A model generated the notes under the pieces. It made no database searches, was not told the origin of the DNA, and was given only the letters and a program-made list of their open reading frames with translations. A stretch of DNA of 34,101 bases, from positions 1 through 34,101 of the forward strand of contig CANPYM010000011.1 in the NCBI GenBank assembly GCA_947588685.1. Reading direction: 5' to 3'. Within the stretch, counting starts at the first letter, position 1; each line of letters begins with the position of its first letter. This DNA is from an uncultured Bacilli bacterium (GTDB taxonomy: Bacteria > Bacillota_I > Bacilli_A > RF39 > UBA660). Below are positions 16,718 to 21,976 of the stretch, one piece after another. A program made the position numbers and the translations under genes.

Positions 16718-19069
16718 ATGGTTGAAGATTTAGATGAGGAAATGATTGATAGAATCAATCGTTATTGGAATGCAGCCAACTATTTATCAGTTGGACAATT
16801 ATATTTATTAGATAATCCTCTACTTAAAAGGCCTCTTGCCTGGAGTGATATTAAAAGTAAGATTGTGGGTCACTGGGGAACCGTACCAGGGCAAAATTTT
16901 ATCTATGCCCATTTAAATCGTATTATTAATAAATACGACTTAGATATGATTTATATATCTGGACCGGGTCATGGCGGTAATTTTATGGTTGCTAATACTT
17001 ATTTAGAGGGAACCTATAGTGAGATATATCCTAATATAAGTCAAGATGAAGAGGGAATGCGTAAATTATTTAAGCAATTTTCTTTTCCCGGAGGTATATC
17101 TAGTCATGTTGCACCCGAAACACCAGGCTCTATCAATGAAGGAGGGGAGTTAGGCTATTCACTAGCCCATGCTTTTGGTGCTGTTTTTGATAACCCCGAT
17201 TTGATAGCTACTTGTGTCGTTGGCGATGGGGAAGCTGAAACGGGACCGCTTGCCGCTTCTTGGCATTCTAATAAGTTTTTAAATCCTAAAACGGATGGCG
17301 CTGTTTTGCCGATATTGCATTTAAATGGATATAAAATCAGTAACCCAACCATTTTATCACGGATTCCTAAAGATGAACTTATAAAATTATTTGAGGGTTA
17401 TGGTTGGAAACCTTATTTTGTTGAAGGATCAGAACCATATATTATGCACCGATTAATGGCTGCTACTTTAGATAAAGTTGTCCACGATATTAGTAAAATC
17501 CAAAAAGAGGCTCGTGAATCAGATAAGTTTACTCGCCCACGCTGGCCGATGATTATTTTAAGAACACCTAAAGGGTGGACGGGGCCTAAATATATTGATG
17601 GTAAAGAGATTGAGGGAACTTTTAGAGCGCATCAAGTACCTATTCCGATGGATAAAGATGAGCACTTAAAATTATTAGAAGATTGGTTAAAAAGTTATCA
17701 CCCTGAAGAATTGTTTGATGATAAAGGACGCCTTTTACCAGAACTTGCCGATTTAGCGCCAGAAGGAAAAAGACGGATGGGAGATAATCCTCATGCTAAT
17801 GGAGGGCTTCTTCTTAAAGATTTACGTTTGCCCGATTTTAGAGCCTATCAATTAGAGGTAAATAATCCTGGCAGTATTGAAGCTAGCGATATGACTGAAT
17901 TAGGAAAATATGTTCGCGATGTTTTCAAGTTAAATGAAGAAAATCGTAATTTTCGAATTTTTGGTCCAGATGAGACAATGTCTAACCGACTAGGAGCGGT
18001 TTTTGAAGCAACTAACCGTGATTGGAATGCTCAAGAGTATCCTAATGACGAGTACTTGGAAAATGATGGTCGGGTTATGGATTCTCTTCTTAGTGAACAT
18101 CTTTGTGAAGGATGGCTAGAAGGATACTTATTAACAGGACGTCATGGTTTCTTTGCTAGCTATGAAGCTTTCATTAGAATTGTTGACTCAATGTTTTCGC
18201 AACATGCTAAATGGATAAAAGTATGTAAGAGCCTACCTTGGCGGCAAGAGATAGCTTCTTTAAATTATATTTTATCTTCTAATGTATGGCAACAAGACCA
18301 TAATGGCTTTACCCATCAAGATCCGGGTTTCCTTGATCACGTTGCTACTAAAAAAGCTGATATAGTAAGACTTTACTTGCCTCCTGATGCGAATTGTCTT
18401 CTATCGGTTTTTGACCACATTATTAAAAGTAAAAATCATATCAATGTCGTTATTAGTTCGAAACATTTACGGCCTCAATGGCTAACTATGGATCAAGCTA
18501 TTAAGCATTGTACCCAAGGTATTGGTATATGGGAGTGGGCTAGTAATGATCAAGGGTGTGAACCTGATATCGTTATGGCTTGTTGTGGTGATACCCCAAC
18601 GCTTGAGTCATTAGCAGCTGTAACTATCTTAAGAAAAGAATTACCAGAGCTTAAGATAAGATTTATTAATGTTGTTGATTTGATGAAATTACAGCCAGCT
18701 ATTGATCATCCACATGGCCTATCAGATACCGACTTTGATCTACTATTTACAAAAGATAAGCCAATTATTTTCAATTTCCATGGCTATCCTAGTATGATTC
18801 ATGAACTTTTATATCATCGTACGAATCGCAACTTGCATGTATGTGGTTACCGAGAAGAGGGAACAATAACCACTCCATTTGATATGCGGGTTCAAAATGA
18901 GATTGACCGTTTCCATCTTGTTATTGATTGTATTAAACATTTGCCTTCTTTAGGGAATAAGGGTGCTTATCTTACGCAGTTAATGAAAGATAAGTTGGTT
19001 GAACATAAACAATATATCAGTGAATATGGTGTGGATCTTCCGGAAGTTGTCAATTGGAAATGGGAATAA
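16718..19069 (+). CDS. xfp: Phosphoketolase (xylulose-5-P/fructose-6-P)
   Basis: A 783-aa thiamine-diphosphate enzyme, the full family length. It splits xylulose 5-phosphate (often also fructose 6-phosphate) with phosphate to acetyl-phosphate and an aldose phosphate, the key step of heterofermentative or bifid pentose breakdown. Family signatures: [55 protein letters not shown] and the ThDP/Mg motif [30 protein letters not shown] and [13 protein letters not shown] lie in the pyrimidine-binding half. ATG 16718 follows GGAGGAATAAAAA. It is single, with a strong terminator. No acetate kinase or phosphotransacetylase gene is in the window. Confidence 0.98.
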
Positions 19070-19072
19070 AAA

Positions 19073-19119
19073 AGAACTTTCTTAGTTAGATATAACTAAC
19101 TTTAAGAAAGTCCTTTTTT
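19073..19119. terminator. Bidirectional terminator between xfp and the HExxH operon
   Basis: Long stem ACTTTCTTA-GTTAG (19076-19089) / CTAAC-tt-TAAGAAAGT (19096-19111), T-run after it on the plus strand and T-rich on the minus strand. Confidence 0.85.
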
Positions 19120-20054
19120 TAAAGTGTAAATACTTTCATAATGCTTTTTTTAGACATGGAATTATCATAACTTATACTATATTTCTTAAGCATATCTTCC
19201 ACTTTAATTTCTCCATCAAAGATTTTTTGAATATAAGTCATCATCTCTTTTTTGGTCTCAATATTACCATCGTGATATAAACTAAATAGATGAAAAGCTT
19301 TAAAAATAGAAATAACATATGACCAATAAGTTGGAATATTTTCTGTTTCATCGTTTTCTGCTTTTAGTTTCTCTTCAAAAAGGGGATCATTTAAGCTTTC
19401 AATAATAGCGATGAGTGTTTCCAAGCGATGAACAATATTGATATGAAGAAGATAATTGTCATCATCAAGATCCATTGCGGCTACTAACTCAAGGAAGATA
19501 GGAATTATTTCACAATCATAGAAAGAAATAACTGATCCTTTGACACTCATAAGTTGTGTATGACCTATTTCATGGACATAACTGATGGGTGTATCTTCGT
19601 TAATTGTTTTAGATAAAAAGATATTTAAGAATAATGCGGGTGAATATTTTAAAACATAATCACTATCAACATAGTCGCCAAAAGTTTTTAAATATCCAGC
19701 AAAAGCATGTTTTTCGGTATATTGAATAGGTAAATTAAAGGGACTTATTGGTATACCAATTTGTTTATAAAGAGCAATCCATTCTTTAGCCATCATAGCA
19801 TTTGTTTTGCTAACTACTTCGAGATAACTTTGCGTATCTGCCATTAAGATGGGGTGAAGGTTTAGGTGAGCACTAAAGAAATTTTTAGCGCTAGCAATAA
19901 CTTCTTTTTCGGGAATAACTTTGACGTGTAAATATTCATCATTAATTGGAATACTATCTAATATGTCTCTAGCATAAAGTAATTTGTTGGTCATTTTGAT
20001 AGGTCTTAACTGATGATATCCGCATATAAGAAATTCTTTTTCTAATTCAGTCAT
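19119..20054 (-). CDS. Putative zinc metallopeptidase, HExxH paralog C
   Basis: Third gene of a tandem trio of related proteins, about 311 aa, no signal peptide or membrane segment. The motif YVHEIGHTQLMSVKGSV carries HExxH, followed 16 residues later by a Glu and then IFLELVAAMDLD with another Glu; this arrangement fits a gluzincin-type zinc site. The N-terminal part shares a FFSAHLNLHPILMAD element with its sisters (FFANYLKLHPIL and FFNRHLKLYPIYYAD). I do not recognise the family. The frame opens at GTG 20063, overlapping the previous stop; ATG 20054 has the best spacing from GGGGTGA and is chosen. Ends in the terminator shared with xfp. Confidence 0.65.
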   Translation of the reverse strand: MTELEKEFLICGYHQLRPIKMTNKLLYARDILDSIPINDEYLHVKVIPEKEVIASAKNFFSAHLNLHPILMADTQSYLEVVSKTNAMMAKEWIALYKQIGIPISPFNLPIQYTEKHAFAGYLKTFGDYVDSDYVLKYSPALFLNIFLSKTINEDTPISYVHEIGHTQLMSVKGSVISFYDCEIIPIFLELVAAMDLDDDNYLLHINIVHRLETLIAIIESLNDPLFEEKLKAENDETENIPTYWSYVISIFKAFHLFSLYHDGNIETKKEMMTYIQKIFDGEIKVEDMLKKYSISYDNSMSKKSIMKVFTL

Positions 20055-20059
20055 CATTA

Positions 20060-20977
20060 TCACCCCACTTGATTTAATAGATGCATAACATACTTTTTGT
20101 CTGCTGAGTTATCCATTGTTACATTATGATTAGCTAAAAAAGCTTCAACATTTTTTTGCCCGTCAAATATTTCTTGAATATCGTGGATAATCCTTTTTTT
20201 AAAACTTGCATCACCACTATAGTATAAATCAAACAAGTGAAAAACTTTAATAATAGAAACGGCGTAACGCATACATTCGATGACAGCATCTTGATTAATT
20301 TTTTTATCAAGTATGTTTTTAATGCATTCTTGATACATTGATATAAGTGATTTCAAAGTAGCATCTAACATAAATCCTGAATTATCAATTTCCATACTGG
20401 CCAGTAATTCTAAAAAAATAGATAAGACTTCATTATTATAATAATTTTTAACACTACCTTTAACACTCATAACTTGGGTATGGGTTATCTCATGAGCATA
20501 AAGAGACATTGTTTGCATACCAACTAAACTATTTAACTCAATACTACTAGCTAAAAAGGGCATTCCCTCAATCGCTTTAGCGGTTTCATCTATATATAAA
20601 AGTTGACCATGAAACAAATCACCATTGCTTACAAGTGTAATAGGTAAGTCAAAAGGGTCGATAAAATCATATAGACCATCTAGAGCTTGCTTAGCTATTT
20701 CTGTTGGAACAGGAAGACCAACATCTTCTAGGCGCCTATCAACTTCATCACCATCAATTCCTAATATAGGGTGTAGTTTTAAATAATTAGCGAAGAAATT
20801 TTGGGTATATTTTTTAATTTTATTTAATGATATTCTTTTAAAGGAATTTGGTAAATCAATGGGTATAGAAATTAGTTCCGTACTAACTTTAATTAAATTA
20901 GTTTTTTCAGGTATCTTAAATAATTTTAAGTCATATTCAAAAATTGGCGCTAAACTATATAATCTAAGTAAGGTCAT
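20060..20977 (-). CDS. Putative zinc metallopeptidase, HExxH paralog B
   Basis: Middle gene of the trio, about 305 aa. YAHEITHTQVMSVKGSV gives H162, E163 and H166, with E183 (NNEVLSIF) and E190 (FLELLASMEID) downstream, the same spacing as in the sisters. A shared C-terminal block (SIIKVFHLFDLYYSGD ... IQEIFDGQKNVEAFL) is present in all three, so the entire proteins are homologous and not just the motif. The frame is open to 20989, but ATG 20977 directly follows GGAGGTAAAT. The gap to paralog A is 15 nt. Cytoplasmic; substrate unknown. Confidence 0.65.
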   Translation of the reverse strand: MTLLRLYSLAPIFEYDLKLFKIPEKTNLIKVSTELISIPIDLPNSFKRISLNKIKKYTQNFFANYLKLHPILGIDGDEVDRRLEDVGLPVPTEIAKQALDGLYDFIDPFDLPITLVSNGDLFHGQLLYIDETAKAIEGMPFLASSIELNSLVGMQTMSLYAHEITHTQVMSVKGSVKNYYNNEVLSIFLELLASMEIDNSGFMLDATLKSLISMYQECIKNILDKKINQDAVIECMRYAVSIIKVFHLFDLYYSGDASFKKRIIHDIQEIFDGQKNVEAFLANHNVTMDNSADKKYVMHLLNQVG

Positions 20978-20992
20978 ATTTACCTCCATATA

Positions 20993-21889
20993 TTAAGATA
21001 ATAGATGCATAACATATTGTTTGCCTTTTGAATTATCAAAAGAGATATGATAATTAGCTAAGATATCTTCAACTGTTATTTTACCTTTAAATGTGTTTTG
21101 AATATCTTTCATTATTCTTCTTTGTAAACTATAACTACTACAGTTATATAAAGCAAATAAATGGAAGGCTTCCATAATCGATATGACATAACTCATTCTA
21201 CTTGAAATAATTTCACCACTATAACTATAAGTTAAGATTTCGTTTATGGAAGTGGTAATAGTATCTAGCATCGATTTGATAATATTATTAGTGACATCAT
21301 CTAGTTCTTGACTAGAAACAAGTTCTAAAAAGAAAGGTAAAAGTTCTTTATGATTATAATTTTGAACACTACCTCTTTGACTCATAGTTTGACTATGGGT
21401 TATTTCATGAACATAGAAGGGAATTGTTTGTAAGGTGATGAATGGTGCGAGCTCAATTTCACTAAATAGGGGATGAGTATCCTTTAATGCCTGCATAAAG
21501 TGAATGCTACCGCTATAGTGATGGATAGCAGTCGTAGGATTATCTTCACTAGATAATGTAAGAGGAAGACTAAAAGGACTAATTTTTTTTCGATATTTAA
21601 TAATTATTTTTTTCCAATCTTTAACTGTTTCAGGATTCTTTTTTTTAGCAGTTGAAATTAGTTTAACAGGATCAGCATAGTAGATGGGATATAGTTTTAA
21701 ATGTCTATTAAAAAAGTTTTGAGCGCCGATTGTAACTTGTTTTAACGTTAATGCCTTTACAGGTGAAGGGGTAATATCAATACTAATAAGTTCAGAACTA
21801 AGCTGCATTAATTCTTCTTGATTAGGTGAAGTGATACCCGAATCAAAGTCATAACCAAAGATGAAGACATTATCCCTAAAACTACTCAT
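20993..21889 (-). CDS. Putative zinc metallopeptidase, HExxH paralog A
   Basis: First gene of the trio, 298 aa. YVHEITHSQTMSQRGSV gives H161, E162 and H165, with E182 (HKELLPFF) and E189 (FFLELVSSQELD). The common features are ISPFSLPLTL (compare DPFDLPITL and SPFNLPIQY), the KLYPIYYAD element and the C-terminal SYVISIMEAFHLFALYN block. ATG 21889 follows GGAGGG and a consensus promoter sits at 21913-21941. The paralogs are clearly diverged, so this is an old duplication. Peptidase activity is an inference from the motif. Confidence 0.65.
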   Translation of the reverse strand: MSSFRDNVFIFGYDFDSGITSPNQEELMQLSSELISIDITPSPVKALTLKQVTIGAQNFFNRHLKLYPIYYADPVKLISTAKKKNPETVKDWKKIIIKYRKKISPFSLPLTLSSEDNPTTAIHHYSGSIHFMQALKDTHPLFSEIELAPFITLQTIPFYVHEITHSQTMSQRGSVQNYNHKELLPFFLELVSSQELDDVTNNIIKSMLDTITTSINEILTYSYSGEIISSRMSYVISIMEAFHLFALYNCSSYSLQRRIMKDIQNTFKGKITVEDILANYHISFDNSKGKQYVMHLLS

Positions 21890-21912: not shown

Positions 21913-21941
21913 ATTATAGAAAAAGTTCCTTTTAAAGTCAA
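21913..21941 (-). promoter_or_regulatory. Promoter of the HExxH trio
   Basis: Minus strand: TTGACT (21941-21936), 17-nt spacer, TATAAT (21918-21913). Confidence 0.8.
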
Positions 21942-21976
21942 ATAAAAAAGAAAAAGATACTATAAAGTATCTTTAT
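21942..21976 (-). terminator. Terminator after the dCMP deaminase gene
   Basis: Stem AAAGATACT (21953-21961) / AGTATCTTT (21966-21974), T-rich tail on the minus strand; it overlaps the stop codon and lies just before the HExxH promoter. Confidence 0.8.

Follow-up and report, generated by a model that had tools for sequence, protein, structure and literature searches.

The window, a stretch of 34,101 nucleotides from an uncultured Bacilli bacterium, contains three tandem open reading frames (ORFs) on the minus strand, which the ORF list of the window gives as 20993-21889, 20060-20989 and 19119-20063. An initial annotation had described them as paralogs with an HExxH motif and a fixed-spacing E-x6-E, and we confirmed this at the positions given in Table 1. 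The three proteins are 298-314 amino acids long and share 34-36% pairwise identity. In all three copies HExxH is followed by a glutamate at H+21 and a second at H+28. The HExxH/E-x6-E block is 49-56% identical among the copies, and paralog identity in the N-terminal and mid-helix parts is just 9-32%. About 0.007 HExxH motifs are expected by chance per 300-residue protein, and the motif with its catalytic glutamate is intact in 46 of the 49 family members that we collected; with these results, we conclude that HExxH is not a chance motif. The N-termini are non-hydrophobic (Kyte-Doolittle maximum ≤0.72 in 19-residue windows near the N-terminus), no copy has a signal peptide, and no transmembrane segment was evident from hydropathy. 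As proposed earlier, the three proteins are probably cytosolic.

Table 1. Features of the three-gene unit and its borders, in window coordinates.
Feature	Position	Strand	Details
Copy a (first gene)	20993..21889	-	298 aa; ORF, family membership, orthologs in G011 and G003
Copy a, HExxH	21409-21395	-	
Copy a, Glu	21346-21344	-	
Copy b (second gene)	20060..20989	-	309 aa; ORF and AlphaFold model, M3-like fold
Copy b, HExxH (H166-H170)	20494-20480	-	
Copy b, E187	20431-20429	-	
Copy b, E194	20410-20408	-	
Copy b, Y242	20266-20264	-	
Copy c (third gene)	19119..20057	-	312 aa from ATG 20057; ORF and alignment with copies a and b
Copy c, alternative start	20063	-	GTG; 314 aa
Copy c, HExxH	19574-19560	-	
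Copy c, Glu	19511-19509	-	
Sigma-A-type promoter-like site	21913..21941	-	TTGACT-17-TATAAT; 11/12 consensus; kept in G003 and G011
Shine-Dalgarno	21900-21895	-	GGAGGG; downstream of TTGACT-17-TATAAT, ahead of copy a
Hairpin 3' of deaminase gene	21941..21974	-	AAAGATACTTTATAGTATCTTT and T run; terminator-like; -8.3 kcal/mol
Hairpin between copy c and convergent phosphoketolase gene	19068..19119	both	terminator-like; -22.4 kcal/mol (minus), -17.4 kcal/mol (plus)

Expression of the paralogs from one promoter had also been suggested, and a candidate site lies ahead of copy a. Our scanner found promoter-like sites overall at the chance rate (19 versus 19.9 expected), and we base the promoter call on the near-consensus match of this site, its position and its conservation in both of the relatives that have the triplet. 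The terminator-like hairpin behind the deaminase gene, with an A+T-rich stem that falls under the G-C rule of the terminator scanner, would set that gene apart from the triplet. Judged by these sequence signals, the triplet is one unit with its own promoter-like site. In G011 (C15; L108:7540-7840), an insert of about 190-200 bases interrupts the terminator-like hairpin that lies between the triplet and the deaminase gene. The insert has inverted ends (CTGTTGACAAA / TTTGTCAACGGCCAG) and a 22-base duplication, AAAGATACTTTATAGTATCTTT, on its flanks, and it looks like a small MITE-type element.

The dN/dS values of the triplet genes (0.16-0.26, versus 0.08 and 0.015 for the flanking genes) indicate that the triplet is under purifying selection. 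Between G000 and G003, dS of copy b is 0.23 (window positions 20063-20974 against L109:8614-9525); it is 0.56 and 0.85 for the tandem neighbors of copy b and 1.30 for phosphoketolase. The low value suggests recombination or exchange of copy b.

For the triplet and its homologs we found no convincing match to a known family in Pfam, NCBIfam, PHROGs or PADLOC, and no sequence relatives in the PDB. Profile searches gathered about 50 homologs, carried by 45 of 386 genomes of the host's bacterial family; several of these genomes have paralogs and some have frame-disrupted copies. In samples of the class (395 genomes) and the phylum (392 genomes), every match fell within the host's bacterial family. 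Searches of phages, plasmids and viral contigs with single proteins or the close trio, which detect close relatives only, turned up no relatives. The family is thus patchy and uncatalogued, and in the genomes searched it was found in one bacterial family only. In a tree, the three window copies and G383 form one clade (support 99/95), and G003 has a separate ortholog of each window copy, which dates the duplication to before the split from G003. In G002, of the same genus, a distant subtype stands in place of the triplet clade.

Conservation of the motif histidines and glutamate among homologs, on which the earlier proposal depended, was borne out. HExxH and E-x6-E form the best-conserved stretch of the protein: among the 38 aligned homologs HExxH is intact in 36, and HExxH, E187, E194, S245 and Y256 (copy b numbering) are among the most conserved columns. 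Three homologs from two species, the G018 pair and its G287 relative, have lost HExxH while keeping intact ORFs of about 300 amino acids and a common upstream gene. By its motifs this clade is plainly non-catalytic, which implies that retention of the fold does not need catalysis. Y242 is missing in 5 of 7 homologs with an altered HExxH or E-x6-E, a group drawn from few lineages, versus 1 of 42 canonical ones; the Fisher value for this contrast takes no account of relatedness. Homologs at L083:7073-8970 (G298:C2), L038 and L048 contain in-frame stop codons, a sign that in some genomes the family is also decaying.

No conserved neighbor or operon partner was found, as neighbor clusters are hardly common beyond close relatives. 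The neighbors are mostly housekeeping genes that vary between genomes, as judged by eye and from a few profile hits, and the uncharacterized ones that were scanned had no Pfam matches. The congener G005 has a clean empty site, in which nothing but a hairpin separates the phosphoketolase gene from the deaminase gene; this indicates that the triplet was gained or lost as a unit. At two loci from two genera (L075:7921-9124 and L079:6050-8890), tandem related genes for proteins of about 93 to 209 amino acids (MYRFKYYYKDGTT...) flank a homolog, together with one protein of about 127 amino acids; the proteins scanned there had no Pfam match. The homologs at these loci have E194D and lack Y242. An ordinary M3 peptidase of full length is encoded in the genome of the window as well, in two pieces at contig ends.

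The copies had been considered zinc peptidases of no known family. The absence of a catalogued family stood, yet the predicted fold sits beside oligoendopeptidase F (MEROPS M3, PF01432), a family named in the initial annotation as one to check, and, with the motif conservation, supports a putative zinc peptidase. The AlphaFold model of copy b (pLDDT 87, pTM 0.90) had its best Foldseek matches all to oligoendopeptidase F/Pz peptidase A, with a probability of 1.00 for the top three and a lowest E of 5e-3. VIA-align, in which helical proteins may score Z of about 13 or 14 by chance, placed model residues 1-309 on residues 211-557 of an M3 chain with Z 14.7 and an rmsd of 4.0 over 253 residues. 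The top five rows were all M3, and nearly all of the best 50 rows were HExxH zincins (M3, M2, M32 and M1). Because the best Z was 14.7 and nearly all 50 listed rows were HExxH zincins, we consider a chance fold match unlikely. A search of a library of viral structures yielded nothing at E ≤0.001.

As a reference we used the model of a full-length M3 protein from the same genus, in which HExxH lies on helix 379-401 and the zinc glutamate E415 on helix 411-431; the order of helices around the site matches the copy b model. We then took ungapped segments from the profile of the compact family and slid them along that of M3. The HExxH helix ranked first at the M3 HExxH, and helix 187-201 ranked 1 of 580 offsets in the register that places E187 on E415 and E194 on E422; with the longer segment 180-203, the E187 register ranked 3. 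Helix 238-258 ranked 2 with Y242 on M3 Y523, which we take to be the catalytic tyrosine (Tyr612 of thimet oligopeptidase). An early reading with E194 (+28) as the M3 zinc glutamate was rejected, since that register ranked 141 of 580 versus first for E187. The third zinc ligand is most likely E187, the first glutamate of E-x6-E.

Profile-profile comparison with M3 scored 35.9 versus at most 21.0 for shuffles, but the signal was gone when the HExxH segment was masked. Full-length hhalign to M3 gave just a local signal, driven by HExxH. The compact proteins score under every Pfam cut-off: PF01432 gave no match for the three proteins at E up to 10, and none was listed for the 38 homologs. They share with M3 enzymes the fold of the catalytic half, HExxH, the Glu-x6-Glu helix, by the register scan a tyrosine of a C-terminal helix and, judged by the absent signal peptide, a cytosolic location. 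In contrast to M3, they are half the length (298-314 versus about 595 amino acids) and lack the N-lobe of about 200 residues, the alignment starting at about M3 residue 210. The glycine of the M3 HExGH, invariant in local M3 proteins, is present in 3 of 38 homologs; the third histidine, three residues after the second HExxH histidine and also invariant locally, is not among the common residues of the 38. In the copy b model, the helices bearing M3 H513 and Y515 (the His/Tyr hinge block) have no evident counterpart. Since several M3 hallmarks are missing, we conclude that the family, as modeled, is M3-like rather than a member of M3.

ImmA-like (M78), M4 and M13 peptidases had no Pfam match listed and were absent from the listed structural rows. 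The listed Pfam results for the family likewise included no M1, M2 or M32 entry. Angiotensin-converting enzyme (ACE, M2) and carboxypeptidase Taq (M32) have the same superfold (Z 10-12), although the match is weaker than to M3; a glutamine two residues past HExxH is shared with ACE. The M1 aminopeptidases and leukotriene A4 (LTA4) hydrolase also match (Z about 10.7), and M1 enzymes likewise have HExxH followed at short spacing by E-x6-E; we take the +21 spacing of the triplet to be closer to M1 than to M3. The M1 alignment, however, spans 188-200 residues only, and the other M1 domains are absent. An independent gluzincin lineage closer to M1, M2 or M32 could account for these matches and for the spacing. 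We consider it improbable, because M3 is ahead by Z 2.4 and is the sole family near a Foldseek probability of 1, and because the E-x6-E and Y242 registers fit M3 in a sequence-profile comparison that covered M3.

The proteins could also be something other than peptidases in practice, that is, zinc scaffolds for binding or regulation in which HExxH is kept for metal binding or stability. The intact ORFs of the clade without HExxH would fit such a role, as would two further homologs with E194D and without Y242, but degenerate forms are limited to few clades and most members keep an intact HExxH and catalytic glutamate, making this reading unlikely. One-gene conflict modules against phage or peptide bacteriocins would account for the patchy spread and tandem copies, and the several paralogs, the frame-disrupted copies, the empty site in G005, the distant subtype in G002 and the apparent recombination of copy b agree with them. 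Against this stand the lack of a convincing PADLOC match in the family, the unrelated and mostly housekeeping neighbors, and the absence of copies from phages, plasmids and viral contigs within reach of close relatives, and we hold it to be slightly less probable still than a scaffold role.

We think it likely that the triplet encodes compact cytosolic zinc metallopeptidases corresponding to the M3 catalytic half without its N-lobe, kept as an accessory unit of tandem copies with diverged substrate-binding parts. That they bind zinc and are catalytic, how large their substrates are and how these differ between copies are points that we infer as follows. Zinc would be held by H166, H170 and E187, with water activated by E167 and the transition state probably stabilized by Y242. 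The missing N-lobe, which closes the substrate channel in M3, would leave an open cleft, with presumable consequences for substrate size. Tandem duplication would have produced copies that resemble one another in the catalytic block and differ in the N-terminal and mid-helix parts, and these three proteins most likely act on different peptide or unfolded-protein substrates; different substrates had been suggested before, and the similar catalytic blocks with divergent flanking parts are consistent with this. The triplet would work as a self-contained accessory unit that some species acquire and others lose, and it would have no housekeeping role. In M3 enzymes, the deep channel restricts substrate size (PMC7565970), and our literature search found no lobe-less M3. 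Streptococcal PepF, an ordinary M3 enzyme, breaks down internalized pheromone (PMC9173638), which illustrates the kind of role open to an intracellular M3-type peptidase.

More speculatively, and with little confidence, lineage-specific single-domain M3-like proteases, free of the lobe that confines M3 enzymes to small peptides, might have come to serve uncultured gut Bacilli as a rapidly changing accessory arsenal. Its tandem copies would address different protein targets, and the conserved non-catalytic copies would act as decoys or regulators. If the peptidase reading is true, these proteins would be an uncatalogued protease family, and the M3 catalytic half would be able to stand alone. 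They would offer a direct test of the part that the N-lobe plays in substrate size, and the family would provide a natural series with active enzymes at one end and conserved copies without catalysis at the other.
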